From assembly GCA_963930775.1 (NCBI GenBank), contig OZ005689.1:27329798-27393797 (forward strand): 64,000 bases of DNA, given 5' to 3'. Under the pieces are notes generated by a model. That model ran no database searches. It was given only the letters and a program-made list of their open reading frames with translations, and had not been told where the DNA came from. Position numbers and translations under genes: made by a program. Origin of the DNA: Cliona cf. orientalis (Eukaryota; Porifera; Demospongiae; Clionaida; Clionaidae). How positions within the stretch are numbered: the first letter of the stretch is position 1; each line of letters begins with the position of its first letter. Below, piece by piece: positions 8,109 to 53,881 of the stretch.

Positions 8109-8238
8109 ATTTACATCACAATTACATCATGTATTCTGAGTTAGGATTTGCTACTTGGGATGTAATCATGCTAACTAAATAAGTATACCCCTGTCTTGCA
8201 TAAACCATAAACATGATTACTACCCTTTACTTATGCAG

Positions 8239-10203
8239 GAGCAGGACCAGCAAAGCAGGCACGCCTGGAAGTGGAAAAGTATCAATGGAAAACACCATCC
8301 AATGTTTGTCAAACCACTGGTAGCAAGTGGGAATATCAGTCATCAGATCACCTGGATGAACAGATCAGGAGTGCGCTTGAACCCCACTTCACTGCTACCA
8401 AGAGTGGAATCACAGGCAAAAGTGCGCATCCTCTTTTACTTGCATTCAGTGGGGCTGGAACAGGAAAATCACGTCTAATAGATGAGTTCCCCAAACTGGC
8501 TGTCAAAGCAACGATAAAAAATGTAGAGTTGAATGTGAAGCTGAAGGATGCGTATGTATTTAAGGTGAATTTGGAGAATAGTACAGCTGCCGGTGTATTT
8601 ACTTGGCCCGAACATCATATCGGGAGCCGAATGTTACATCAAATGTCATGTATGGATTGGAGTGAATTCCGTAAGACAAATGATGCAAACATAGATCCAG
8701 AGCGTGTACTGGAAATCCTTGGTAAGGTTGAAGGCAAGAAATTAGAGGACATGACTGTCATGATTCTTGTCGATGGGCTACAAAATCTTTCACATAAAGC
8801 ACAGTCAAGCAAGTCAGATTTCTCCCAAGTTCTGAGACACCTTTCAGCCATGGTGAATAGTTGTGGATCACCAGCCAAGCCCTTCATAATCTGCTGCATT
8901 TCAGCACTAGTGAAAGAGCCTGTTTCTAGCTTTCTGTCTAAATCGGCCCAAAGTCATCGACAGCTTACACTTCCAGTAATTGATGGTAAGAAAATCATTG
9001 ATACTAAAGGTGATATTATAAGAGAATTGCTTGTGGATGATATGGGAGGCCATGGACGAGCACTAGAAGTACTGGAATCAGAGCTGAATAAATACGGTGA
9101 TGCAAAGTACAGTAGCATAACCTTGATGCATGACGTTCGCAATAACCTCAAGCTTCAGTATCCACACTGGAGTGAGCGTAATGATGACATGAAAGTAATA
9201 CTCACGGCTGTCATAACTGGGGTGAAATTTGAAGGTCCTGGGAGTAAGTACCGTGGGCGTTCAATTGAAGATTATGTACAGTATGGCTTGCTTCGATTTA
9301 ACAGAGCAACAAATAGGCTAGACTGTCCGTTTATTTGGCTTTGGTTAATTAGTGAAGCACACCCGGATTTACGCAGTGTCTTGTGGGTAGAGGGAGTGTA
9401 CACACAGGCAGAGTATCTTAACAATCCAGAGGTGTGTCCACAAGGTTTTGCCTGTTGGCAACATTGGGAAGTGTTCACAGCTAAATTTTGGTGCCTACTG
9501 ACAACTGTATACAGTGGTACAGAGATTGGATGGCATCGTCTTCATGCAGGTGCCAAATTTGGAAACGGAATAGAGCCTAAGGTGCGCGTTAAGCAACTTC
9601 AATATAAAAAGGCCACTCAACACTGCTTTACAACTTCAGACAAAGCCCAGTGTGAAGTTCGAACGGAGAGTAGCATCATTGACCCATCTCAGTGTGAAAC
9701 ACACATATTGCCTGCTGAAAACAACCCGGGTGGCGATTCCTACTGTTTTGTGGAAGAGCTTATTGATGGTTCTAGTCGAAAAGTAACTTTTGCAATGTCG
9801 AACAAGAAAACAAAAGCAAAGCGGAAAATGGATGACTTGAAAGTTGAAAAGCAAAAGGCAGCATCAGAAAACGACTTGTTCATTGAATATACGACAGGTT
9901 CATATGAATTCAAAGCTAATGCATGCAATTCCCGTTGTGGTGTAGTATCCTCATCAGAGTTCAAAGAATACTTTGGGCCATTCGCTAGCCGAGCATTCTT
10001 TATGACAAGAAATAAACTACCAAACATCAACACAGCTGCACAATCTCACCTTGAAGCAGTTCATGGCATTGGCCAAGTACTATCATGCCGGATTATGGAG
10101 AACAGAGCCAAAAAAACGATTTTCCTCTCCTGAAGATGCTGTGCAGCGGGTACATGGGCTAGGTGAGAGTAAAGCTGCACTCTTCCTGTATGATTCGGAC
10201 TGA
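8239..10203 (+). pseudogene. Crinkler/RHS-like NTPase, near-complete copy
   Basis: A long exon begins after an AG acceptor (TTACTTATGCAG, ending 8238); no local ATG is needed, so this is a downstream exon. It encodes about 630 residues. Early on there is a Walker A motif, FSGAGTGKSRLIDEF. A Walker B-like MTVMILVDG follows, then DDMGGHGRALEVLESEL, which resembles the conserved GGHxRALE block of Crinkler and retrotransposon-hot-spot NTPases. The C-terminal half (WQHWEVFTAKFW, VYSGTEIGWH, LHAGAKFGNG) could be the nuclease-like part of that family; I am less sure of this. A stop in the main frame falls at 10131-10133. A +1 shift near 10060 would give a plausible tail (KYYHAGLWRTEPKKRFSSPE, then ESKAALFLYDSD) ending at TGA 10201-10203, so a 1 bp indel is likely. 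Family members act as secreted or nuclear effectors or in mobile-element conflicts; its role here is unknown. Confidence 0.6.
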
Positions 10204-16614: not shown

Positions 16615-16969
16615 GCACCAAGCCCTCCCTCTACCAGGGTTTGAGGCCCATCACACTCAAAGGAACTATCATAGCTACTTAGCCACGTCATTGCTAGTCT
16701 TAGCTAGCTACATCACAATAATAATTCATACCATGCATACTTACACTGTACTGAACGAGCTGATACTTTTCTAGATATTAAATTCCTCACTGTGTGAATG
16801 GGTCATTTTCATCCATATTTGGATTCAGAACATACCTCGGGGGAGGGGAAAAGAGAACCTGGTAACGACTGCATGCGCATGCGCCAAAATCTCCATATAT
16901 TATCCGTGGACTACTTGATCGTATACTACCAGTCAAGCTCAAAAGTCGCCCAAGCACTCGAAAAGTATC

Positions 16970-17853
16970 TTGCTTGAAGATAGCATAACATCTCAACTCT
17001 ATAGAGGTATGAAATGTTTACCTAAACAACAAGCAACAACATCCACACAAACTTACTCAGGAATTTCAAGACTAGAACAATATATACAGGCAACAAAAAG
17101 AAATAATATACGCACACATGTACTAGAAATAACAGCAAATACACACAATAATATGAACAAAAATGAACAGAATTTTCTCAATAAACTTAAACAAAACAGA
17201 AGCACCATCACAGTAAAACCAGCAGACAAAAACTTAGGAATTGTCCTCATGGATACAGAAGACTATATACAACAGTGCACAAAAGAATTAAGCAAAGGAA
17301 AAACGTATAGATTAGTAAACACATACCCAGTCGAAGCAGTTAAAACACAAATTATGGACACACTCATCTGCTTTAAAAACCAACTTGAGAACTACAACAA
17401 TAAACTATACAGATATCTAATGCCCCAGTCCACAACCTATCCAATACCTCTAATGTATGGCATACCAAAGATCCATAAACAATTCATCGTTTTCCCCCCA
17501 ATCAGACCTATTGTATCTCAGTGCGGGTCAGTATTAAAATCCATAGCAACCTTCCTGGACTACATGCTACAACCACCGGCACAGTCATACCCAGACTATT
17601 TACACAACTCTACTTGTCTATCCTGCATCTTGCAGGAACTAAGTATCCCAGAAAATGCTTTGTTAGTTTCGGTAGATGTAGAAAGTTTATACCCCTCCAT
17701 TCCACAAACGGATATGCTAGAGACAATCTATCATGAAATGAGAGAAAAAAGACATCTACTCATCTTTGATCCCAATCTAATAATAAAACTCATACATATC
17801 AATGTTAACAACAATTATTTTGAATTCGCCAGTCTCATATTCCAACAGGTTAA
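16970..17853 (+). pseudogene. Penelope-like retroelement, 5' half (RT N-terminal part)
   Basis: The open frame starts upstream of any good ATG, so the element is probably 5' truncated. It encodes the PLE RT N-terminal block (TVKPADKNLGIVLMDTEDY), then PIPLMYGIPKIHK, PPIRPIVSQCGS and RT motif A (LLVSVDVESLYPSIPQ). It breaks off at FASLIFQQ because a piggyBac element is inserted at TTAA (17850-17853). The frame resumes exactly at 21549, and the two halves together give about 720 codons with no other disruption visible. PLEs are retroelements that pair this RT with a GIY-YIG nuclease. Confidence 0.9.
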
Positions 17854-18708
17854 CCGATTATACGCCGTGATGTAATATCCGCGCGTGACGTACGGCAGCC
17901 AAATTAATCAAACGTGACCGCCCCCCATCAGAACCGCGTGACTAAAACCAGTCAGAACTGCTCAAGGGTTGAAGTTGGCTATAGGCAAGTTGTTACCAGG
18001 GCGAAGAACGATGGATACGCTTTCCAGTAGTGAAAGCGAGAAGATCGGTCCCTCCAGCACTGAGATACGGCAGACTTTCGGCGATCGGTAAGTAAAATTA
18101 TGGTACATGCCTAGCGTTAGTCACTATACGAAGGGGCCCTTTCGTAAATAAAACTAATTTTGGGTTGAAAACGATAGTTCTATGGCTACTTACTTCGTTT
18201 CTAGTTAGTTGGCGCCTGTTGATTCGGTAGGCAAAGTTTGGAGGGCAAGGAAACTAAACAATTATTGTGGCGCTTTACATGTCCGTACATGTATGTACAT
18301 GTAGGTAGCGTACAGGAACGGTGAGACCTTATGAACCTGGTAAGCAGTTAGAGGAGGCCAGAAATTTTACTAAGGTAAGAGTACATACATGCAGAAACAT
18401 TTATTGACATACTGCATGTGCATATTAGGCATAATATGGACATCTGGTAGATCACGCAACTTGCATAAGCCTGTATCCCTTCCTCAAACATGGAAAAATA
18501 CATGTAGTACAGATTTGTGTATGCCTATGTGCATGTACATAAATGTCGGCACCGTAACTTGGCCCTGTCAAGAAAGAGTGATGCATCCATGCATGCATGC
18601 TCCTATACAACTTGCATCAGTGTGGTGTGTGTGCACACTGCCAATTTTTTTTTTTTTTTTTTTTTGTGTGTGCACATCCTGATTCCACATCCCTGATTCA
18701 AAGGGGTG

Positions 18709-18710
<2 letters not shown>

Positions 18711-18757
<47 letters not shown>
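18711..18757. repeat. (GA)n microsatellite
   Basis: An uninterrupted GA run of about 47 bp lies in the 3' flank of the piggyBac transposase gene. Confidence 0.95.
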
Positions 18758-18759
<2 letters not shown>

Positions 18760-18819
18760 GAGGGTGATGACACTACACTACTAACATAGTATTATGATGA
18801 TACATAGGTGCTAATGAAA

Positions 18820-21153
18820 TTATTCTTCTTGTTCTCTTCTGTTCTTATGCCACAGGAGGAAGCAGTCGGTCTCAGGTATCCCAGAATGACACAGCCACAC
18901 ATTGCACTCTCGGCAAAACCAAGAAGAGTCAGTACGCTTGTGTCGAACCTGAAGGCAGCGCGCACAACGTCCTCTCTTGTTTGCTCCAGTGGTGTCATCT
19001 GGGACCTTGAGGGGGAAGTGCATTAGGGGGAGAGGGCGAATAGCACCACCACCACGACCAGCTCGCCGACGACTGCAGTAGTCTCCTATGAGTTGTTCTG
19101 CAAGGTGTAGCCGGAATTCTTTGAGGGTCATCCCAGTTGCAGAGCTAAAGTGCTTCCACAAGATGAAAGCATTTGTGATGCTGACATCAAAAAGAAAGTA
19201 AAAGATGTATTTATAGAACTTGCGGCTCTTTGTGCGGCAGTTGTAATAGCCGCGCAACTGGTCACCTCGATCAACACCCCCCATGTTGGAGTTGTATGAG
19301 ATCACAGCTTCAGGGCAAGGAACAGCCGTCCGCGTCCCGTCCTTCTGTCTACGGAGCACAGAACCTGTCGCTGTTGGCTGCGTGTTTGTAGACATGACGG
19401 TGACAGGCTTATTGTCCATCCACACGCTGGCAGTCACCTTGCCTCGCTGGAGTGTCTTCGATTCGCCTCTGTGGAGTAGAGATCGTAAGTATTATGATTA
19501 TTAGTAACCTATAGGATGTATATTGGGAATCATGATTATGCTCTTGTGCAGTGCACATCAATCTGGTGTGTTCACGCTTTTCCTCAATGCATTCACACTG
19601 TACATTCCATACACATACCTTTCTTTCAGACCAGCATTCTTGAGTGCTGCTGGGAACTCCTTCCTGTCCTTCCTGGCTGTCCCGCATCCATAATGCCGTC
19701 CTTCTCCAGATCTTCAAGGAGCTGGTAGCTAGTAAAGTAATTATCAAAGAATACGTGGTGATTCTTGTTCTTGAGGTCCTCAGTCAACTTTTTCACCACG
19801 TGTGCCCCAAGTCCCTCTACTCGCCCTTCTCCCTTGCCGGTGTAAACGTCGAATTGGCTGAAATAGCCGTTGGTACTATCTCCCAGTACCCACACTTTGA
19901 TTCCACGCTTCGTTGGCTTCTTAGGCATGTACTGTTTCAGGCTGGAACGACCTTGAAACTTGATCATGGCCTCATCTACAGCAACCTCCTTGGATGGTTC
20001 ATAGAGGGTTGCGAACTTGTTGCTGAGATGAGTGATCAAGGGTCGAACCTTGCCAAGCCGATCGTGAGCTGGATCACCACGTGGAGCAAGATGGTCATTG
20101 TCCACAAAGTGTAGGTACCGGGAGATTTCCCTAAAGCGCCAGCGAGGAATCCTGTCGGCGATCGGGGCATACCGCAGTCGTTGGTCACGGCTCCAGTAGT
20201 CATCAAGCGATGGCAGATGGTTCACACCCATCAAAATGGAGAAGCCAAAGAAAGCCTTGAGCTCCTCCACAGTGATGGGTGTCCACGACTGATACTGCTG
20301 ATCGCCCATCACTTGCTTAGCATATCGATTGCTTTCCCTCACAATCTCTTCCTGTAGGTCGTCGGAGAAGAAGAGTTCAAAAACATCGATAGGCGACTCG
20401 GGGATCTCTGTGGTGGGGCCTACTGTGGACGTGAAGTCATTGATGGTGACTGGTTGCAGTTGATCAGTCCACGAACTTGGTGATGTTCCTACAATGATAT
20501 TGAAACATGGTAAGTGCTAAAAATCTGCAAATATGTCTAACTGCATGTGTGTGCATGTGTGTACATGTGTGCGTGTGCATGTGTGTGTATGTATGTGTGT
20601 GTGTGCATGTGTGTGCGTGTGTGTGTGCATGTGTGTATGTGTGTATGTGTGTGCGTGCATGTGTGTACATGTGTGTGTGCATGTGTGTACATATGTGTGT
20701 GTGCATGTGTGTATGTGTGTGCGTGTGTGTACATGTGTATGTGTGTGCATGTGTGTACATGTGTGTGTGTGTATGTGTGCATGTGTGTACATGTGTGTGT
20801 ATGTGAGTGCGTGTGTGCATGTGTATGTCTGATCTGTGAGTGAATATTGTGTGTGGATTAGGTCCCACTCTTGCCTGGGTTTTCCAAGGTATATAGCACT
20901 AGCTTACTCCACTAAACTAACCATTAGCAGCTTGAGAAGTTGAGGGTGGTGGTGGTGGTGGTGGTGGTGGTGGTGTTGGTGGGACGCTGTCCATGTCGGA
21001 GCCATTGCCTGGGTCAAAGTTGTCATAGAGGGGGCTGAGTGATGGTTGTTGGCCATGCAAGTCTGTTATATCATCATCATCATCACTATCTAACTCCAGG
21101 TCGGAGAACTCGTCATCGCTGCCAGGCATTAGTGGCTCATCTGGATCATCCAT
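18820..21153 (-). pseudogene. piggyBac transposase, three exons, single frameshift
   Basis: Exon 1 (21153-20917) encodes an acidic N terminus (MDDPDEPLMPGSDDEFSDLE) and a proline run, ending at a GTTAGT donor. Another ATG lies upstream at about 21215 but in a different frame. Exon 2 (about 20489 to 19620) carries the DDE/D core: VDEAMIKFQGR (first Asp) and HHVFFDNYFTS (second Asp). Exon 3 (about 19469-18820) holds the third Asp in SNMGGVDRGDQLRGYY. It also has a C-terminal Cys/His zinc domain (CARC, CREC, CLxxWH-like) typical of PGBD proteins. A missing T in ATTTAT near 19692 (ATTAT here) shifts the frame just before the YGCGTARKDRKEFP block. Otherwise the protein looks complete at about 580 residues, so the copy was active recently. 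Confidence 0.85.
20543..20828. repeat. Imperfect (GT)n/(ATGTGT) microsatellite
   Basis: About 290 bp of GTGTGCATGTGTGT-type sequence lies inside the first intron of the piggyBac transposase gene. The long ORFs on both strands here are low-complexity artefacts. Confidence 0.95.
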
Positions 21154-21548
21154 CCCTCATCATCACTCAAGTTCTGTGCTACCTCCTCAGCAGTCCACCT
21201 AGGCCTCTTAGTCATTGTGCAGTCTCTCTAGTGATATAGATTAGCTAGTCATTGCTTAGGTTTATAGCCTTAGCCTACACTATTTCAATTGTAAATATTG
21301 TCATGCACGTTTTTATCAATGATATTTTATGCTTGGTTTATGATACTTATTGGTTACCAAGCAATACAAAAAGAGCTATCATAAGTTACCTCGATAGTAG
21401 TCCGAGAATCCTCGCAAGTGCTGAAAAGAACGGCCCCTCCTTCGGTGAGTTATCTCGAGTGTAGCTGGAGTGATTGCAGCTGCCGCGAAAACGCGTCAAT
21501 GGCGCCGCGCATGCGCGATGCGTTATTGCGTCTATGGCGTATAATCGG

Positions 21549-22840
21549 TTAACGGCATGGCAATGGGTGCGGCATGCTCACCCACAATAGCTAACATATA
21601 CATGTCGGTCACACTAAGGAGGTTTCTGAGAACCCAAAACCACAAACCCCTGCTACTAACAAGATACATAGATGACATTTTCATCATATGGACTCATGAT
21701 CAGAAAGAATTAGAACAATTTATATACAATCTGAATCATTTTAACAGCTCACTAAGGTATACCTTCCAATACTCGTCTACCTCAATAGACTTCCTCGACC
21801 TAACCATATACAAAGGATCCAACTTCTCAAACACCAAAATATTAGACACATGTACATTCCAAAAAGTACAGAATCTGTATCAATATCTACATTACTCCTC
21901 TAACCATCCCAAGTCACTTTTTAAAGCCATCATTACCGGGGAGCTCATCCGCTATGTAAGAACCAACACCAGAGAAGAACAATATATAGCCATGACAAAG
22001 CTATTTGAAAGCAGACTTCTAGCCAGAGCATATCCTAAACCCCTGATACAGAAAACCAAATCAAGAGTACTATACCAGGACAGAAGGAAGTACATGCTAT
22101 CTCAGAGCAAGCCAATCCCTAGAGTCTACCCACCAATATATAAATGCCTACCCCCACCTCAATATCATGTCCTAAAGGCTATAATCCTGCAAGACTACAA
22201 CATGCTTGGAAGAGTACTACCAACTCCAAAATTTATATCACTAAGCTATCCCACTCTCAGAAAAGAACTCATTCGAGCAAAATTAATTCCAACTGACAGG
22301 CAGTTTGTGGATATTTACCTAGCCACAGAATCATGTAACAATCCCAGCCAACCAGATCATGGGAAACTGCCTAAACTCCAAACTCAGAACACAGGCATAA
22401 AGAAATGTAACCACCCTAGATGCATAACTTGCAAACATCTGAACTGCAACAAACAGTTTACATCAACAAAAACCAAAGTCACCTACACTATAAGACACAA
22501 TTTTTCGTGCACCTCAAAAAATCTGATCTATCTCATCACTTGTAAGAAATGCAAAAAACAGTATGTCGGACTAACAATGCAAAAACTGAACACCAGAATA
22601 AACCACCACCGCTCCAACATCTTCAGCAAGAAACCCATCTACTTATGTGTTCATTTTAATTTTCCTGATCACCACATACAAGATCTCTCGGTACAACCAA
22701 TAGACACAGTAGTTGACCAAACACAACCTCTAGAAGAGCTCAGAAAGTTGGAACGGTACTGGATAAGAACTTTGAAAACACTAAAACCTGATGGTCTTAA
22801 TCTGAGCACTGGTTTCCCAACTATAATTTCGTCTTCCTAA
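21549..22840 (+). pseudogene. Penelope-like retroelement, 3' half (RT motifs B/C, GIY-YIG)
   Basis: The frame continues from the 5' half. RT motif B is MAMGAACSPTIANIYM and motif C is LLTRYIDDIFIIW (YxDD-type box). A long thumb and linker follow, then a Cys/His-rich segment (CNHPRCITCKHLNC). The C-terminal GIY-YIG nuclease has LIYLITCKKCKKQYVGLT and an Arg in LNTRINHHR. The ORF stops at 22838-22840. This order is characteristic of Penelope-like elements with an endonuclease. The gene is intact apart from the piggyBac insertion and probable 5' truncation. Confidence 0.9.
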
Positions 22841-24970: not shown

Positions 24971-25879
24971 CAGTGGAACCCTGCATAACGGACACCTGCG
25001 ATATAACAAACAATTCTGAAATGTCCGGATTGTACTTCCATAGACTTCACTATATTCATACCCCCTCAACAGCGGACACCCCGCTATTCGGTATAATGGA
25101 CACTTATTTTGGTCCCACAGTGATGCTTTATCATAGCTGGCCTCGATTGTAGGAGGGGCATGGTCAACCACTACCCCTGAGCTAAGGACACCTCGCTATA
25201 GCCTCGTACCCAGGCCCTTTGAGGAGGAGGAGGAGAAAGGGCCTGGTATACACTGTACGCGCATGCGCAAAGTTTACGGAGCATTTTCTAGTATAATTCT
25301 CTGGATATTGCCACTACCACGCGGTCGGATGTGTACGGACAACATATACTCGAAGCATCCTATGGCGTCCGAAGTCGGTGAAGCCTACAGACTGGATATT
25401 TCTAAAGAATATCGTACGGAAGACTTTCTTCGCTCTCACTTGACTTTAAACAAACCTTTTTAAGCTTCAGAGATCTGACAAAGTCCTTTCGCTGCCGTTG
25501 GACAACTGCCTCGGTGTCGATACTTCCAAAAAGTCGACTAAACGTGAGTCGATGTCCTTCTCGTAGCTTCTTTATTATTCTTCTGTCGATATTGCTCGCT
25601 TGTGATAGCGAAATTGGTCACAGCAGGCGTCTTGAGCCCGAAACGCTACCAGCAAAAATGATTTTTGGGCATATACCTGAGGTCAAGGTTCACGTTTACG
25701 GACAGATAAGCGGACAAAAATACGAATTCCCAGCTTTTACTGGGAAAATAACGCATGCGCACACAGTGCGTACCAGGCCCTTTCTCCTCCTCCTCAAAGG
25801 GCCTGGGTACGAAGCTAACCTCGCTATAGCGGACTAAAATTTTGGTCCCAATGGTGTCCGCTTTAGAGGGTTTCCATTG
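24971..25879. mobile_element. pogo-like MITE (TA duplication), disrupted
   Basis: The left end CAGTGGAACCCTGC follows TA at 24969-24970. The right end GGGTTTCCATTG precedes TA at 25880-25881. The uninterrupted relative at 29625-29921 is 297 bp; the extra length here is the insertion at 25199-25817. CAGTGGAACC ends with a TA duplication fit Tc1/mariner-superfamily pogo-like elements. Confidence 0.8.
25199..25817. mobile_element. TAGCCTCGT-family MITE, 619 bp, 9 bp TSD
   Basis: The ends TAGCCTCGTACCCAGGCCC and GGGCCTGGGTACGAAGCTA are inverted repeats. ACCTCGCTA is duplicated at 25190-25198 and 25818-25826, and the empty site is visible in the other copies of the host MITE. Each end has an internal dyad CCAGGCCCTTT ... 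AAAGGGCCTGG around a purine-rich spacer. Interior sequence is shared with 33780-34311 and 51620-52157. No transposase is encoded. Confidence 0.9.
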
Positions 25880-31512: not shown

Positions 31513-31521
31513 GATACAAAC

Positions 31522-31569
31522 TAGCCTCGTTCCCAGGCCCTTTGATCAAAGGCCCTGGGAACGAGGCTA
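31522..31569. mobile_element. 48 bp perfectly palindromic insertion, 9 bp TSD
   Basis: The two 24-base halves, TAGCCTCGTTCCCAGG plus CCCTTTGA and its exact complement, form a perfect palindrome. It is flanked by the exact 9 bp duplication GATACAAAC at 31513-31521 and 31570-31578. The ends are those of the TAGCCTCGT MITE family, so it appears to be a minimal member consisting only of its two termini. Confidence 0.9.
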
Positions 31570-31764
31570 GATACAAACTTGCTCCTCACCTCACACTTTC
31601 AGCTGAACAGCAGCACCATGGACCATGTACCAGAAGACACTGATGGCCACTTTCATTTCGCGTCAGAGTATAGTAGTCAGAGGAGGTAGGACGGGCTTGA
31701 ATAATGTGGGTAACATTCCACTTTTGGCCGGATTCAGTATCCGGTCTTACGCATATGCATTGTT

Positions 31765-38589: not shown

Positions 38590-38897
38590 TTGATAACGAA
38601 TGATACTCAAATCCTAGTACCTACATATGAATACCTATAGTTCATACCAAGTACTTATAGACTATAAGCCCCTTTTCCTATCTACCATTTCATAGTTTAC
38701 TATAAGTAGTGACAATACTATAGGTAGTACAGTAGTATTAGAGTATACTTAGTGGACCCAAAGTTCACCCATAAGTGGCACATATATACTGCCCTTGAAC
38801 TATAGACCAGAGTATACATAGTACACCCATAGTTAACCCATAGGTGGCACATATACTGCCCTAAAGTACCTACATGTACCTACATGTACCTATACAA
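38590..38897 (+). repeat. Left subterminal array, outer part
   Basis: About four units of the pattern CCAGAGTATACATAGTACAC, CATAGTT, then CCCATAGGTGGCACATATAC. They are more diverged than the inner part at 45087-46640 and are separated from it by the nested element at 38898-45076. Confidence 0.8.
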
Positions 38898-39048
38898 TAG
38901 CCTCATATCCAGGCCATCCCATGTTTTTCAACGTTGCGCGAGAAAAAGAGGGAAGGCCTGGTCGATAATGTGATGTAATGATCACGTGCGGACACTATTT
39001 GGGACGCGGTTAACGTGACCCCGCCTACTCGCCCACGCATACGTGTAC
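38898..39048 (+). repeat. Left 151 bp TIR of RecQ/DUF6589 element
   Basis: Reverse complement of 44924-45074 with a handful of differences, mostly in the first 25 bases. Homology stops sharply after CGCATACGTGTAC. Confidence 0.9.
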
Positions 39049-39368
39049 TGTATGTTGCATGCTTGAGCGCTAGCGCTAGCCAGCTAGCTCAGCGATTCTA
39101 CCACGTGCGAAGATGAGAAGACTCGAGAGCCACTGACCGTACTCAACAGCCATCATGCCGACCCCTGCTATCCACCCTTCCCCCTGCCGTGGAGAACTGA
39201 AAGATGGCTAGAAAATGATAGACTGGCTATCAAGACCCAGAGTTGTGCCGCGTAAGTGCCGGGAAAATGCACACACACACAGTGTTCTGATTGGTTTATG
39301 GTATCCCGCGCGCCGGCATGGCCAGCCAACGAATCGCGAAAGCGCCAAATTCGACCACGATATGAGCG

Positions 39369-41275
39369 ATGGCACTGCTATGCAGTCAAACCTGTCTGTA
39401 TGCCAGAGGCACACCAAGTAAACCTGGCTTGGTGTGCAGGGATGTGTGTGAAGTACAAGGCAGATTGCCATCGGCACTCCAGAAATATTTTGGATATCAA
39501 AGTTTCCGACCGGGGCAGGAGGCAGCTGTTCTATCTGTATTGCATGGGCATGATACGTATGTGAGGATGGCTACAGGTTCGGGCAAAAGCATTTGTATGT
39601 TCCTTCCAGAACTTGCCCACAGTGACAGGGCATGTACCATTGTAATCAGCCCCCTAATTGCACTGATGGATGACCAGGTAAACATTTTATTGCGGATATT
39701 GATCACAACATTATTATGATTATTGAAGGTTGCGAAGCTAAATCTACGCCGCATTTCAGCTATTCGGGTCAGTGGGGAGAGTAGTAAAGCATGCTATGAG
39801 GAAACAAAGCGTGGGAAATATAAGTTTGGTAATATTGGCCATATTATCTGCGGTATAGTGCATAATTTTCAATAACGTTCATTTAGTTTTGATGTCACCC
39901 GAGACGGCCACTAGTCTCCGTTGGAGAAACTTGTTTTCAGAGTGGTATTTTAGAACTAACTTGTGTTCCATAGCTGTGGATGAATCACACTGTATTGCTG
40001 AGTGGTTGGTTACGCTAATAATACTATGTAGCTATGCATGTTGCATGCATGTTTATTGAAAGCCATACTCATAGGGGGAAGGATTTCCGTACATCCTTCA
40101 GCAGGATTGGAGGCCTACGGGCACTGACTAGAGCTCCTGTAATAAGTCTTACAGCATCTGCTCCTCCAGCTGTGGAAGAGCAGTTGTTAGAATCTCTGAG
40201 CATGCATAGTCCAACCTTCATCAAGCACACCCTTGACCGTCCTAACATTTTCTATAGTGTTTTAAAGAAGACAAGTATGACAGTGAGTGGTATTGTTTGC
40301 ATATATGTTGAGTAGACTCACTTGTTTATTATATGCAGAGAGACTTAGGTGGCCTGGGTCAGTGTCCCTCTTCAGCTAACCCTAGATCTATTCCGAAAAC
40401 TATAGTTTTCTTTGCCAACAAGAAGCAGGTAGTGCAGGCAATTAACTAATGAAATGAAGCAGTTTGTGTTACGGCAGTTTGTCACAAATGATGCCGAAAT
40501 GAGGGTCTTATGTTCCACCATTGCATTTGGAATGGTACTGGCTAATTATTGTTAATTTTTTCAAGGTGTGGTACTCTCACTAAAACTTTTAGGGTATTGA
40601 CATCCCCGATATATCCGTAGTTGTAATCTACTGGGTTCCTGACACCATTTCTCAGTTATATCAGGTATAAAGCAACTTAATTGCTATACATGTATTCAAC
40701 TATTAATGCTACAGTTGAGTGGACGTGCTGGACGCAACAATGAGCAGTCTTTATGTGTCCTTTATTACAACTCCAAGCAGAAAATAAAGGACTCAGATTT
40801 AAAAGCTTACTGTAGCGATAAGGATAAGGAGAATTGCCGTCGAGTACAGCTTCTTCGAGCTCTGGGGGATACAAATGTGCATTCACGTGATCTGGCGAAG
40901 TGTTGTGATCACTGTAATCGTACAGTTGTCCCAATCCCTCATCTACAAGCCATCATAAAACGTAGCGCACAAACACGTTAAACAAACACAAAGAGATCAC
41001 GGAAGGAAAATGATTCTGACACTGCTAAACAATTAAAGGAAACATTGATCACAGAACGGAATAAAATTATTTCAAGCAGCCCTGGACTAACCTGGTTGGG
41101 TCCTGATCTTGTGTGTAATGACAAAATAATTTCTATTATCTGTGAAAGGGCTCATTTGATTAAGACAGTTGCAGATCTTTCTTCTGTTCCTGGCTTATGG
41201 CGTCAATTTCATGAGCCCATGTATAACGCTATAGCACATTTTCCGGACATTATACTACCGCCAACCAAAAAATAA
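39369..41275 (+). pseudogene. RecQ-like DNA helicase of the nested transposon
   Basis: Exons by eye: 39369-39677, 39729-39828, 39897-40004, 40075-40282, 40339-40428, about 40477-40535, 40593-40664, 40715-41275. Motif 0 is FGYQSFRPGQEAA, motif I ATGSGKS, Ia VISPLIALMDDQV, II AVDESHCIAEW, III SLTASAPP. Motif V/VI parts are STIAFGMGIDIPD and QLSGRAGRNNEQ. A Zn-like C-terminal part has YCSDKDKENCRR and CCDHC. Compared with the usual RecQ order, about 35 residues around motif IV are missing before FVLRQFVTNDAEMRV. An in-frame TAA at 40979-40981 interrupts the frame, which then stays open to 41275. ATP-dependent 3'-5' helicase activity is known for the family; its use in transposition is inference. 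It is convergent with the DUF6589 gene, 75 bp away. Confidence 0.75.
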
Positions 41276-41349
41276 ACGAATCAGAACACTGCATTATTTA
41301 TCTGTTTTCATGGCATGATTTTATTGTATGTACATTTTGTGTTTATACA

Positions 41350-44300
41350 TTATACTACATCATATAGCTCATAGTTTAGATCCACTATGTTTTCGACCAT
41401 CTCGTCATCAGTACTCCCGCTGATATCCTCATCATCCACTTCTCCTTTTAGGTACTTGTCGATATGCCCACCTGCGATGCGTCTACACCCGATAATGCTG
41501 GGGTCCTCGAATTTGATGTGGGATTCTCGCTGTTCAAGCTCTGTTGCTACCTTCTCACTGAGTAAGTGTGATACCATGTTTTTGATATCCTTGTTTGCAT
41601 CTCTAGCTGTGTGTGCAACACTCTGACTTACACCAAACATTCTGTCCACCCTTTTTGCGACATGTATCAAAAGTAGAGCACATAGGGAAACGTCCTCCTT
41701 ATGTTTGTCGGTTGAATTAGCTCCACTTGCACGCATGGTCTCCTTAATCATGCTACAATATTGATGGCATATGATACAATTTTAATTGTGAAAGAAAGAA
41801 ACTCACAGGTTATAGTATTCGATCAGTTGATCAAGGGGCTTTGCACAGCCTTCCTTTCCAGTCATGTTTACCGCACGATTATGAGTTACAATGTATGCAA
41901 TATGTGCTGGAAAATCACACTTTAGATTGCAAAGCAAATTCATTGCTTCTGTTGCATAATTCTTTCTGTTGTTTCCCAGGAAGTACACCAACCAGTGCTT
42001 CCAAAGCCGAATCACCTGCTCCCCTTTCTCATATCTGATAGCCTCTCTTAGGTCAACGTATAAGAAGCATCCTCGCATGAACCATCGATGGAATGCATAG
42101 GCTGCATCAGTCGACTGTGTTGGTGCCAGGGTACATAACATGATAGAAGCTGCGGTTTTCTGTAACCACTCAAATGTAGGCACATGCGGTATATCTGCAT
42201 CTGTGGATTCAATCCCGAAGTGTTGGCATATAGCAGCTGCGAGATGAGCATGAAAACAGTGAACCAAAAACTCGTCTCCTGTGTTGAAAACTTTTCCCTT
42301 TTGATCCATACTTAGTCGGTTGATGTGCTGCCTAAGATTACTTAAAGAGCCCACTGCTCTTACATCTCCCCAAAATGCATCAAGAATTACTTGCTGGCAC
42401 TCCCATAGGAAGTGAAATCACCTACATGCACAAAAATTTTGTATATCACCGTAATAACCTATGACCCCTTTGTATGAGCACACACGTACCAGGTACTTCA
42501 TGCGCCCACTTCATCTGGTTGACAGGATTGATCTCGGGGATTCTCCATACTTTTGCAGATCGGATGTTTTTGCAGGTGAGTTGGTCACCGACTACTACCT
42601 AATTACGAGATTTTTTAGTACACCATTATACCCTGCCACTCTCAAACATTCATGGTTGGAAGATAAATTATAAAATTTAAGTATATTACCTGGTGGTCAT
42701 CATCACTTAGTTCTATATCCTTCCTTAGTTTGTCAAGGATGTCAAGATTACCCTGTGTATATTTTTCATCTACATCCAGGATCTTCATTGGTGCCACCTG
42801 CGACTTGCTAACTGGATGAGGAGAGTGTTGCTTGGGTACCAGATTCTCGAGATGCTTCAAACCCTTGAAGAAGCCCACCAAGAATCTCATAATGTATGCA
42901 GTCGCACATTTGCTCATTACTTCTCCATCTTCTTCATTTGGAATGATGTCTTCTGCTTTCAGAGAACTCCTTGAGCCTTGTGAAGACTTGTCACTCCAAG
43001 AGAAGCTAGCTGGAGGTACATTCTTTATCTTGACAGCTAGTCGAGAGGTCATATTCGCCATCTTTTGATGTATATCTGATACAGAATAAGTGTGTTGCAA
43101 TCCTGTCTCAAGGCTCACTACGTTAACTGATACTAACCTGCTCTCTCATGATGCACATGATGGTGGAAATTGATGTTATCATACATCCAAAGCCAGTGAT
43201 CATCCTTTGCAACTTCAAGATACCTGGCCTCACAGGAAAGCTGACGTAAGTATTGCCATGTCGCATCATATGATAGGCACACTCCAGCATGATTTAAAAC
43301 TCTTACTACCTATGTAAATTATTTGGGAACCATTAATACCTAATTTCAAGCTATTGAATTACAATGTGATGGTGTGTATGGCAAGTGCATGTAGCTATAT
43401 GTATATGAAGTGTCACTCTCAAGCATACCTGTTTGCCTGTGCCACGAGTTATGAGCATGAATGATAGTAAGAGTTGCATGCCTTTGAACCGGTTACATCT
43501 AGCATTTAGAATTGTGCACAGAGACATTATGACCTTCATTTCTTCCACAGTTAAGTCTGACTCCGCAAGCTTATTGCTGCTACGTGCTGTATCACAGAGT
43601 CAGAAATAAGGAATTTGAAATGCAAGGACAAATGTCCGGGCATAGCATGATTTGACCGGTCATTCCATAAGATTGGGTGGCCACTCGTAGGTAATGGTCG
43701 TTACCGTTAACGCGGAAAAGGTCATCAAACATGCGCATATAATAGAAACGAGTATTGATTATCAAGCATATGGCAAAGTCAATCGATCAAAGATGGACTA
43801 TGAGTAGTACTTTTGGGCGACCTTCATGGCCGGACAAGTAAGTATTTGGTCGGTCTTATGGCTGAAATGCACGGAAAATGGCCGATGGCCGCCTGTTATT
43901 TCTGACTCTGGTATCACCTACAAGCTGGAAAAACTGGTACAGATCTGGAGAACATTTACTGAGCTCACTGATAATCGTGTCGATATGGAACTCGGAAACC
44001 CTTAGGTGTGAATCAGGACCTTTGCTGCTTTTGGGAGCTAACGACATGGCTTTTTCTGCCTGATCAATTAGATGTTGGGATTGTTTCAGGTTGCAGATTT
44101 CCACCTTTTGCTGTGCCACTTCGCCCTCCAATTCACTAATCCTCTGCCTAAGCTGTTGCCTCTCTTGATCTGCCAGATATGATGCTGATGAAGTCGAAGG
44201 CATGGCTCTGGAGGTAGCCACTGACACACCGACTAAAAACGTTGACTTCACACCATTTTTCGACATACGCTTATGCTGGACAGAGGGAAATGCTTCGGCA

Positions 44301-44464
44301 ACAACTTTATGTGCTTCGATTGGAGTTATCTGTGTGGCTGGACTGCTGCTGTACTTATCATTCAACATCTGTCGAATGACGTGCACATTCAAGAACTTGG
44401 TGTCATCATCGGGCGAGTGCACAAGCTCGGATCTGAGCCTAAACGAGGCAGAAGTGGATTCAAA
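41350..44464 (-). pseudogene. DUF6589 protein, candidate transposase
   Basis: Exons on minus, approximate: about 44464-43910, 43590-43430, 43310-43140, 43118-42690, 42599-42490, 42422-41813, 41756-41350. The N terminus has a segment ending FPSVQHKRMSKNGVKSTF, loosely like an RFX-type winged helix, then a coiled coil (RQRISELEGEVAQQKVE). The core shows WLWMYDNINFHHHVHHER, VVVGDQLTCKNIRSAK, FLWECQQV-like, GSLSNLRQHINR and KVFNTGDEFLVHCFHAHLAA. These are blocks I associate with DUF6589 proteins common in cnidarians, sponges and mushrooms. Asp in YDNIN and GDQLT are candidate catalytic residues. A 1 bp deletion near 42412 (TTCACTTCC where TTCCACTTCC-like is expected) shifts the frame. Because it is one of only two genes inside a TIR-bounded element and the other is a helicase, it is the likely transposase. 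Confidence 0.65.
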
Positions 44465-44923
44465 TAGATTTTAATGTTCATGCATCAGCACCACCTACCA
44501 CTGAGCCCTTTGTGATCTTTGACTTTTGTGTGACATAATGTACTTATGCATGCAAGTTGTTCAACAAATTTCTTATTAATGATCACCTTCAATTCAGTTT
44601 ACTGTATTGAAACAGAATTTGATATGTATTGTCCATGTATACATCCATCTACCTAGCTATATATTATACATAGTCCATGTACAAATCCTGGCTATTCCTC
44701 CAGCTATGACAAATATTATACCGATGTCATAGACAGGCTACGGTAAACTACTGACAATTAGATCACCTCTCGTCTTGATACTTCACAGGTAAAACACTGA
44801 ACGCAAGCAACTGCAGGGCTAGGGAGTCGTAGGGATCGAAAGAGAACCACCAACAGTACACGCAATATTGTATGGCAGCAATATATGGCGTATGTAGCAT
44901 GGCAAGCGCATAGCATCCAGTGC

Positions 44924-45074
44924 GTACACGTATGCGTGGGCGAGTAGGCGGGGTCACGTTAACCGCGTCCCAAATAGTGTCCGCACGTGATCATTACATC
45001 ACATAATCGACCAGGCCTTCCCTCTTTTTCTCGCGCAACGTTGAAAAACATGGGATAGCCTGGATACGAGGGTA
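44924..45074 (-). repeat. Right 151 bp TIR of RecQ/DUF6589 element
   Basis: Reverse complement of 38898-39048. It is followed by two bases (TA) and the 9 bp duplication CCTATACAA at 45077-45085. Confidence 0.9.
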
Positions 45075-45086
45075 TACCTATACAAC

Positions 45087-50500: not shown

Positions 50501-51334
50501 ACTAACCAGAGGAATCGCTGGCAAAGTCCTTTCTCTATATTAGAAGGGTTTTCGATGAGACCTCGGGCAACTGCCAGTTGCGTGAAGCCACCAACCGTGA
50601 AACCAGTACGAAACATGGTAAAATTGGCTTCTCCTGACACTGTGAAAAATTTGTTAATGTGGTTACAGTATTAATCAAGGGCAATTTCACCATTGCACGA
50701 TGAAGGCTCAGGGCTCAGGTATAATGCTTATAATAATTGAATTGATGATCTCCTAGATACTCAAAGCCAGTTTATTGTTAACTGTTACATGCAATGATGC
50801 ATGATGAAAACTGGTTGGAGCATAAGAACAGTACTTAAACAAATCATACATGTGTGGCCATACATTTTTCTTACCAAATAACATACCTGTTCGCCTAATC
50901 CATTGGTCCGATCCATAAAGTTGTAAAAATGTACTCACTTGCTGTGAATCTGTGACATTTCGCCCACGACACACGTTCATTTGGGCAAGAAACATTGACA
51001 GTTCATCATAAAGACCAAGAAGTTTTCCACTATTATCATTCATCAACTCTCTGAGCTTTTCAAATGATTGATCGTCAGATAACCAAAATGGTCCTTCACT
51101 TTGTCCACATTCCGATCTAGTTTCGTGAACTAATTTCCTGAGTAGTTTGCACAGCGTGGATTTGCCAGAGCCGGTTGGCATGCAAATAGATGCCCATACA
51201 AGTACGGGCTCCATCCAATCGATACCTTCCACTTGAACAACGGAGTGTGCCATTGAATAACTGACGATCAAGAGAAGGCCACACAGAACAGCATCGGTAG
51301 GCATACTGGTAGCTTTCTCATCTTGATGAATGTA
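47535..51334 (-). CDS. DUF3987-like P-loop ATPase gene, leftward partner
   Basis: Exons by eye: 51334-50887, about 50642-50433, 50366-50208, about 50120-50003, possibly one near 49930-49800, 48444-48217, 48163-47950, 47674-47535 (TAA). Exon one encodes DAVLCGLLLIVSYSMAHSVV, Walker A MPTGSGKSTLCKLL, GKLLGLYDELSMFLAQMN (Walker B-like) and FLQLYGSDQWIRRTG. Next come FTVGGFTQLAVARGLIENP and GLCQRFLWLVP (arginine-finger-like). Later exons have LSKSKGQILRIAATLHVLFN and WNLLQEAGVAKLVERKHGRG. This order matches DUF3987 helicase/primase-associated ATPases. The true start is upstream: the ATG at 51370 lies in an intronic MITE terminus, and a short open stretch near 52250-52190 may be an earlier exon. 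Introns hold hAT-like and other repeats. It is head-to-head with the KDZ transposase gene, suggesting a shared element and promoter region. I see no frameshift in the exons read, but N-terminal exons are unresolved. Confidence 0.55.
48815..49346. mobile_element. hAT-like MITE in a DUF3987-gene intron
   Basis: The termini CAGGGTTGCATACAG and CTGTATGCAACCCTG are perfect 15 bp inverted repeats. C/G-rich tracts lie just inside both ends. The segment 49138-49310 (TACTTTTTCTGACACATGCT, ACC) is shared with 54140-54300. No target duplication was recognised. Confidence 0.75.
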
Positions 51335-51361
51335 CTGAGAAAACAATAAATTCATAAAGAA

Positions 51362-52157
51362 TAGCCTCATATCCAGGCACTTTAGCCCCGTTTACACTAG
51401 GCCTTTAAACCGCTTTGGAAGACAGCTTAGTTTAAGCTGGCCGCATTACAAATTACCTTCTAAACCGGTTTGTAAACAACGTCTGTCCACGTGTAAATGC
51501 TCTAAGCTGGCTTAAGGCGCTTACGTAAGCTGGCTTAAGGCCCTACGTGTAAATGCAATTAAAAGCACATTCCAAAGTGGTTGGCCTAAGCCAGTATAGT
51601 AGGTATAAATGGGGCTTTTGAGGAGATGAAAGAGCCTGGTGCACACTGTATGCGCACACACAAAGTTTACAGAACATTTTCTACTTCTAATTCGCCGGAT
51701 TCTATCACTACCACGTGGTCAGACACATACTGACAAGGTGTACTATGTCAGTGAACGCTTAAAGACTCTATATTGCTGAAGAGTGTTATACACCTCACTT
51801 TAAACAAACTTTCTTGAGCTTCAGAGATCTGACAAAGTACCTTTATTGATATTGGGCAACTGCCTGTGTCGACAGTCCTAACTATAGTATATGTAGTTAT
51901 CCAACAACTTTAAAGGCTGGTATAAGTCGTTCTTCATTTGTTCATCTATTGTAATGCACTCGTTTAAGATTTGTCACAACTAACATCCATAGCCCGAAAC
52001 GTAGCTGATATTTTTAGGCAAGGTCACAAATTTATCATTTATGGTGTAATAAACAGACAAACTTGCAAATTACCAGGATTTACGGAAATTTGGCGCATGC
52101 ACAGTGTGTACCAGGCTCTCTTTCCCCTCTCCTGAAAATGAACCTGGGTTCAAGCTA
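51362..52157. mobile_element. TAGCCTCGT-family MITE between the divergent genes
   Basis: The ends are TAGCCTCATATCCAGGCA and GAACCTGGGTTCAAGCTA. The interior (CACTACCACGTGGTCAGACA, then CTTCAGAGATCTGACAAAG) matches 25199-25817. A second MITE (51384-51616) has inserted near its left end. No 9 bp duplication is visible. It lies upstream of the first recognised DUF3987 exon. Confidence 0.75.
51384..51616. mobile_element. PIF/Harbinger-like MITE, 233 bp
   Basis: AGCCCCGTTTACACTAGG ... ATAAATGGGGCT is flanked by TTT at 51381-51383 and 51617-51619. The host sequence reads continuously across the site (CCAGGCAC-TTT-GAGGAG). Related to 34694-34989. Confidence 0.75.
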
Positions 52158-52879
52158 TCTCTTGATCTTAATTATGTTGTTGAAGCATGTCACGGAGTGC
52201 TGCCACTTGGTTTGTCGATATGGCTATCATGCTCGAAGAAACTGAACATATACAGTGCGCATGCGCAAATGGAACTTAGCGTAGGCCACACTCTACACTA
52301 CTACAGCTGCTCGAACTCGACTCACTACCGTGCACTGGCGATGTTCTCGCTCTCCACGAACGTCGAACTTACCAGTAGAATATTGATAAGCATGATAAAG
52401 AACAGACCTCGCCTCTCTCAAGGCTCGATACAGCATGCTGAGCGGGCTTCGCGCCGTTCGTTGAGTCGAGTGTATGGCCACTCGTTTGTGCATAGGGCGA
52501 CCGATCGTGCACCTTCTAAACTTGTGGCTGAGCGCATCTTTGTTCCATCCAGGCAATGACACTGATTATAAATATAAATTATAATATACAATTAATAGTC
52601 CCGCGGGCCCGCGCCCGCGAGACTAAAACGTTGTCCTATAGTAAAATTTACCTTGGCGAGTTTGTCAGGGAACAAACTGAGGTCCAGCGATAGAGTCCAA
52701 CACTTTTTGAGTCTGGAGGATAGTTGAAGGGCAGCCCCGTCTTGCTTCGCGGACAGACGCGCATTGGAAGGACTATACGAAGACATAGTGCATCCACGAC
52801 GCTCGAGCGCTCGACGGCACTGTCTCGACAGCGCAGCAGCTGCAGCACGATACACGTGTAGTGAAGCACCCGCTCGCAC
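52158..52879. promoter_or_regulatory. Divergent intergenic region of the KDZ/DUF3987 gene pair
   Basis: This G/C-richer stretch (for example CCGCGGGCCCGCGCCCGCG near 52602) separates the leftward ATPase gene from the rightward transposase gene. It is the natural place for a bidirectional promoter. No TATA box or initiator could be assigned with confidence. Confidence 0.3.
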
Positions 52880-53881
52880 ATGCGCACGATTGACTCGACC
52901 ACGTGGTATGCGGCTACTGTGCAATACTACATCGGAAGTACTGAGATTCAGAGAACCATATTCGTGCGACTAGCTATGCTAGGAGTGTTGGCAAAGTACA
53001 TAAGTAATACCTCTGTCTTGAGAAGACTCTTGTTTGCAATTGCGTATCTGCCAGAGGATATGCCCGATAGATGGACCTTTGCGCTCAATTTTGCAACAGG
53101 TGGAAAAAATGGTGATGCGGATATACTTACACCACAACAAGTGAAAGTCCTAACCGATAACTTAAAGGAGATGGATGAAAAAGCATTCGTTGATGATAGG
53201 AGTTTACAAGAAGAACTGATTTTGCTGCCTAAGGAAAAACCACTCGGAATTGTTTTGATTACTAGCAAGATATCTTGTTCGCTATGTGGAAGTGGATTGC
53301 TGCTACGCAAGGATCGCCCTTCATCAGTAGTGGTGTACGACAATGAAATGGGAAGCATTCCTGCAACACATTATCACAAATATTGCACCAACAGGAAGTG
53401 TGGCACAACTCACTACTACGGATATTATACCAAAGCTGTTGATTTGCATGGTCGAGCATTTTTTTATGACAACTGGGATACATTGCCTTATTTCGTTTCA
53501 TCGCGGGAGACAGCATTTTCTACAAAGTTAATGAAACGATTTGATGCTCAAATTCTCATGGGCCAGCAAAGTTTCAAGCAGTGTGCAGAGGTTTATAACC
53601 ACTTGCATGTGGTTCTGGAAGCAAGGTCTTGGACATCATCAAACCTGCTTGCTGTGTAAGTTGTATGCTTAAATTATACAACCTCATAATACATGTACAT
53701 GGTTTCCCATCGAACTTGCTCTTAGTCTGGAGGAGAAATTATATACATACATGTATGCATGCATACTAGGCTGCTAAATCCTTCACTAGCTATGCACAAT
53801 ATTACTAGGGGTAGGGTAGGAATCCCGCTGAAATATAGATTAACTTGCACGTATCCAGCGATACTCTTAAGGTTGCATGTT

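Follow-up and report, generated by a model that had tools for sequence, protein, structure and literature searches.

The AcademH lineage of the Academ superfamily of DNA transposons reportedly goes back to a 2020 paper by Kojima (Mob DNA 11:15), which by its title is said to concern animals and fungi. As excerpted, published descriptions give AcademH target-site duplications of 9 or 10 bp and AcademX duplications of 3 or 4 bp, a difference tied to the helicase and the nuclease that these lineages respectively encode (PMC10045372), and count Academ among the superfamilies with a DDD/E transposase (PMC9587614); bivalve Academ elements average 5,565 bp in an excerpt of a third source (PMC10294476). 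A RecQ helicase is also carried by KolobokH, a DDD/E transposon that the excerpted source reports from fungi only, and Kolobok-1_CCri bears its RecQ helicase on the complementary strand; the duplications of Kolobok are TTAA, i.e. 4 bp (PMC9587614).

Here we examine a stretch of 64,000 nucleotides from the sponge Cliona cf. orientalis (hereafter the window), in which a first-pass annotation, made from the sequence alone, had marked a transposon pairing a RecQ-like helicase with a DUF6589 protein and had proposed the latter as an RNase H-like transposase. We consider this element likely to be a copy of an AcademH-type DNA transposon (AcademH being compared by its description), with DUF6589 as its transposase and the RecQ-type helicase as a conserved partner.

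Results

The transposon proper occupies positions 38898-45074 of the window; its left limit is as first annotated, and the right limit, originally placed at 45076, is set at 45074 by comparison with other copies. Terminal inverted repeats, a feature of AcademH, are present at 38898-39048 on the forward strand (starting TAGCCTCAT) and at 44924-45074 on the reverse strand (starting, on that strand, TACCCTCGT), and are about 151 bp long and 97% alike, in agreement with the near-identical 151 bp ends described initially (the inverted arms 38897-39048 and 44924-45075 comprise 152 nt with 4 mismatches). The direct repeat flanking them is likewise real, but its length had been underestimated: the 9 bp reported, CCTATACAA, are the last 9 bp of an 11-bp target-site duplication, TACCTATACAA, at 38887-38897 and 45075-45085 (no strand assigned to either). 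Exactly two convergent genes lie inside, as the annotation had stated, a RecQ-type helicase gene on the forward strand (39369-40981) and a DUF6589 gene on the reverse strand (41350-44470); both are split by introns, and the exon limits, estimated by reference to relatives and open frames, are approximate.

The helicase gene has several exons and carries GSGKS, DESH and GRAGR, which we take to be helicase motifs. Its Pfam match to DEAD lies above the cut-off and that to RecQ_Zn_bind below it; the helicase of a related element (L045) matches DEAD and Helicase_C above the cut-off and RecQ_Zn_bind below it, and TIGR00614 matches adjoin DUF6589 loci. The element accordingly shares with AcademH the coding of a helicase, here of RecQ type, and no nuclease (XPG in the case of AcademX) was matched among the seven window pieces scanned. 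An in-frame TAA stands at 40979-40981, a place at which the relative from another element, on contig C16, continues in a 186-aa open frame; since the helicase frame ends earlier than in this relative, the window copy is, on sequence grounds, probably impaired.

The DUF6589 gene comprises at least seven pieces, all on the reverse strand. The last exon (41350-41751) has a weak match to the Pfam family PF20231 (DUF6589) that alone falls below the cut-off, and the core exon (41803-42417) matches it with an E-value of 1.9e-33. There follow, with approximate limits, exons at 42480-42598 (containing GDQLT), 42642-43118 (PF20231, E 1.1e-8), 43136-43309 (containing YDNIN and lying upstream of the Pfam domain), 43400-43599 (a further upstream exon) and 43856-44470, an N-terminal exon with a possible coiled coil, for which the sole match was at locus L044 (22% identity, E 4e-7). 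PF20231, to which Pfam assigns no function, is matched by all of the pieces examined from the genome (14 of 14 core and 4 of 4 upstream pieces); the (Y/G)DN stretch, however, sits upstream of the part of the profile that is matched. Across the cores of 14 copies mean column identity is 34%, and 13 columns are invariant, among them all three fixed residues of a DxxxExxN motif, whose second half reads EHxN in most of the copies and EYYN in that of the window. The first-pass annotation had singled out conserved aspartates in YDNIN and GDQLT, and both are retained: that of (Y/G)DN in 7 of 7 aligned rows covering the position and in the C16 copy (YDNLN), and that of GD(Q/H/L) in 6 of 6 alignment rows, GDQLT being found also in three of three further copies (window, L044 and L039). 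The conserved D...D...E residues would fit a DDE-type enzyme. Against the AcademH-type reading, two copies have Q or A in place of the glutamate of YATEA.

Searches of Pfam and of PDB sequences gave no sequence link between DUF6589 and RNase H families, which also counts against that reading: one piece (A1) was without a PDB match, another (A4) weakly matched four seemingly unrelated proteins (E 0.19 to 1.1), and at loose Pfam E-values only DUF6589 recurred. No relatives were found in contig collections of viruses and prokaryotes, which, because these are the organisms covered, says little about eukaryotes.

The genomic survey covered the 217 Mb assembly that contains the window. From 338 first-look DUF6589 candidates 102 were scored, yielding 122 rows and, once 20 second pieces were dropped, 102 loci (more loci may exist); these are not all independent, since they include near-identical places on different contigs that may be unmerged haplotypes. 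With three helicase queries, a helicase was found within 5 kb of 100 of the 102 loci, convergent in all 100 cases and in no other orientation. The first query alone paired 72 loci, where 0.6 would be expected by chance, and two further queries from the window's own lineage (using 44 of 144 rows and 42 of 46, respectively) paired 28 of the remaining 30, every pair again convergent; no helicase lay within 5 kb at C1:22577135 and C1:35459794. The suggestion that RecQ and DUF6589 form a conserved unit within 5 kb was therefore borne out. In the other direction, and as a point against the AcademH-type reading, no scored DUF6589 locus was present within 5 kb of 47 of the 119 helicase clusters; part of these clusters resemble fragments or RecQ genes of the host, and others may neighbour DUF6589 candidates that went unscored. 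RecQ helicases do occur as host genes, and long RecQ frames are found away from scored DUF6589 loci, but the supposition that two host genes came by chance to lie between unrelated inverted repeats has a negligible probability in the face of so regular a pairing, and is already contradicted by the dispersed copies, with ends and duplications in common among those read at length.

Joint inheritance would predict matching distances in the two genes, as is found: helicase and DUF6589 distances across 11 loci gave a Mantel r of 0.91 (p 5e-5), in a set that left out the near-copies L008 and L047, L042 (where the DUF6589 frame is in two pieces) and the window's lineage. In two diverged pairs dN/dS is 0.3-0.4 for both genes, a rough figure with many synonymous changes. 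For the close pair L046/L047, which speaks against the AcademH-type reading, it is 1.0 for the DUF6589 piece (25.5 vs 7.5 changes) and 0.1 for the helicase piece, on 4 changes.

Ten loci were read at length, i.e. the window, the C16 element (from three loci) and L040-L047. Seven of these have both ends and a duplication, of 11 bp in the window, 10 bp in L045, 9 bp in L040, L041, L042 and L046, and 8 bp in C16, and these two-ended elements are 5.1-8.0 kb long; L043, L044 and L047 have a single perfect end each, and no element end was seen in stretches of 3.8-4.0 kb from L001-L003 and L005-L007. Amongst 28 small copies the commonest duplication is 9 bp, exact in 14; one copy each has 10, 8 and 7 bp, six more show one mismatch over 8-9 bp, and five are without a duplication. 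Exact duplications of 9 or 10 bp, as described for AcademH, are hence found at family level in 15 of 28 small copies and 5 of 7 long elements; the 11 bp of the window and the 8 bp of C16 and several small copies count against the AcademH reading. As the first-pass annotation had anticipated, the elements share ends, of TAG[C/T]CTC type, and have duplications of about 9 bp. In the genome the end sequence of the window is matched 59 times (its own two ends included), and flanks share at least 7 bp in 17 of 28 true pairs vs 1 of 756 pairings of different small copies; these two results together confirm that the DNA transposon observed in the window is real and not a product of chance. The DUF6589 and helicase genes travel together inside common inverted ends and mostly leave 9-bp duplications.

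The same duplications bear on whether this could be a Kolobok element with a RecQ helicase. KolobokH, a DDD/E transposon that the excerpted description confines to fungi, resembles the present elements in carrying such a helicase, and the complementary-strand position in Kolobok-1_CCri is like the arrangement here; nevertheless, Kolobok as described duplicates TTAA, 4 bp, vs about 9 bp of mixed sequence in the sponge, so that this assignment is already contradicted and we regard it as very improbable.

A related copy within the window, at 31522-31569 (no strand assigned), is a perfect palindrome of 48 bp flanked by a 9-bp duplication, GATACAAAC, at 31513-31521 and 31570-31578. Because it holds nothing but two ends, about 24 nt per end can be enough for movement, provided that this was the form in which it moved. 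Further ends in the window, at 25199, 34310, 51362 and 57566, were also considered as parts of further full elements, and were rejected as the pairings tried showed no duplication.

Other features were noted in the window. Near the unmatched TAGCCTC-type ends at 51362 and 57566, the interval 50753-53659 contains one frame with DUF3987 and one with CxC5 (KDZ-associated), which possibly belong to another transposon family. A frame at 16919-17875 has no Pfam match, and one at 21545-22840, presumably Penelope-like, matches reverse transcriptase and GIY-YIG; between them, on the opposite strand, lies a DDE_Tnp_1_7 gene (18820-20516) that we assume to be of piggyBac type, and the whole (16919-22840) is perhaps a nested insertion. 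Long frames at 1055-1957 and 8217-10133, in opposite orientation and about 6 kb apart, have in common a nearly identical segment of some 295 aa, in which a P-loop-like GAGTGKS occurs.

Eight ends (both of the window and one each of six other elements) have a common design, in which a tip of 11-12 nt is followed by CCAGRC and, 22-56 nt further in, by GYCTGG. In the window the inverted pair CCAGGC...GCCTGG begins at nt 12 of the left end (38909-38961, forward strand) and at the same position of the right end (45011-45063, reverse strand), with predicted hairpins of z -5.2 and -3.7, respectively. Genome-wide, the pattern TAGYCTCGNNNCCAGRC followed by GYCTGG after 20-50 nt has 2,483 matches, a number in which one end can count twice and which in part reflects wholly palindromic small copies, whose second motif is that of the opposite end; the reversed pattern has 0 matches, and a direct in place of an inverted second motif gives 85. 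With 2,483 matches in 217 Mb, the elements and the small copies derived from them make up a common class of repeats in the genome.

One hundred of these matches were listed; all fall within the initial 7.2 Mb of contig C1 and have ancestry in common, so that they are not independent. Of these, 18 that overlapped a palindromic partner were set aside, and some palindromic copies probably remain in the other 82. Three variable letters agree (T/A/T or C/G/C) in 77 of the 82 listed ends kept, i.e. the GYCT of the tip, CCAGRC and GYCTGG vary together. The inverted motifs fit paired binding sites, a stem, or both. We judge the chances to be evenly balanced that they serve solely as paired protein-binding sites and never form a DNA hairpin: the three motifs co-vary as if one protein reads them all, and on single-strand folding 3 of the 8 ends are not clearly better than shuffles (z -1.4, +0.2 and -0.2). 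The remaining five do outperform shuffles (z -3.3 to -6.5). Evidence against a role in binding alone comes from the listed matches, where pairing extends at least 2 bp past the core in 51 of 68 distinct ends vs 4.8% of shuffled loops, with a mean extension of 2.87 vs 1.46 for arms taken from different ends, although palindromic small copies may be included in the 68 and raise these figures. G-rich runs occur in the predicted loops of L041 (1790-1869) and L046 (2002-2081), and could form a quadruplex. Literature searches did not find this design (the 11-12 nt tip with co-varying CCAGRC...GYCTGG) in print, and one on hairpin-type ends, covering titles and the beginnings of abstracts of the papers listed, showed nothing on Academ ends.

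Discussion

A plausible mechanism can be outlined for these elements. DUF6589 would bind the repeated GYCT motifs of the ends, excise the element in the manner of a DDE cut-and-paste transposase and join it to the target, with a stagger of about 9 bp between the nicks. Catalysis would employ the aspartates of (Y/G)DN and GDQ together with a later acidic residue, for which the invariant glutamate of DxxxExxN is the best candidate. The helicase may unwind the ends, which could form stems from about nt 12, or may instead resolve strand-transfer or gap-repair intermediates. A more specific proposal, which we put forward tentatively and think unlikely overall, is that the ends act as structural signals of an 11-12 nt tip plus a stem, with the element's own RecQ helicase acting on the stem (or, in some families, on a G-rich loop) to open or release the ends for the DDE transposase; were it true, this would be a cut-and-paste transposon dependent on its own helicase for the reading of its ends.

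On the AcademH-type interpretation DUF6589, a family without known function, gains a likely role as the transposase of transposons that bring their own helicase, an assignment backed by a genome-wide test. Our literature searches found no paper naming DUF6589, none that combines Academ, RecQ, transposase and TIR, and no account in print of DUF6589 as the transposase candidate of such elements. The related elements, together with minimal copies of 48-84 bp, provide material for asking why a cut-and-paste transposon needs a helicase.

The first-pass annotation had held that the element would define a transposon superfamily. We find no support for this, as an Academ lineage that encodes a helicase and produces duplications of 9 or 10 bp, AcademH, has already been published (PMC10045372, as excerpted). 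A separate, undescribed superfamily that has likewise recruited RecQ and makes 9-bp duplications, with a transposase unrelated to that of Academ, nevertheless deserves mention: our elements were set against Academ by its description, the sequence libraries searched contained no Academ protein, the literature searched contained no paper that names DUF6589, and KolobokH, in the excerpted account, shows RecQ recruited by another superfamily. We consider it improbable, however, given that a helicase together with duplications of 9 or 10 bp is exactly what the excerpted source reports for AcademH.

Amongst described systems, then, AcademX, as excerpted, belongs to the same superfamily as AcademH but differs from the elements here in having a nuclease instead of a helicase and duplications of 3 or 4 bp vs about 9 bp. 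AcademH, known here by description only and from an excerpt, shares with them both the helicase and the duplications of 9 or 10 bp, the 11 bp of the window copy being the difference, and the excerpted bivalve mean of 5,565 bp for Academ is similar in size to our 5.1-8.0 kb. Since the helicase and the length of the duplications match AcademH, and the size is similar to that of Academ, we assign the element, by likeness to the description of AcademH, as a probable member of that lineage and not as a new superfamily.
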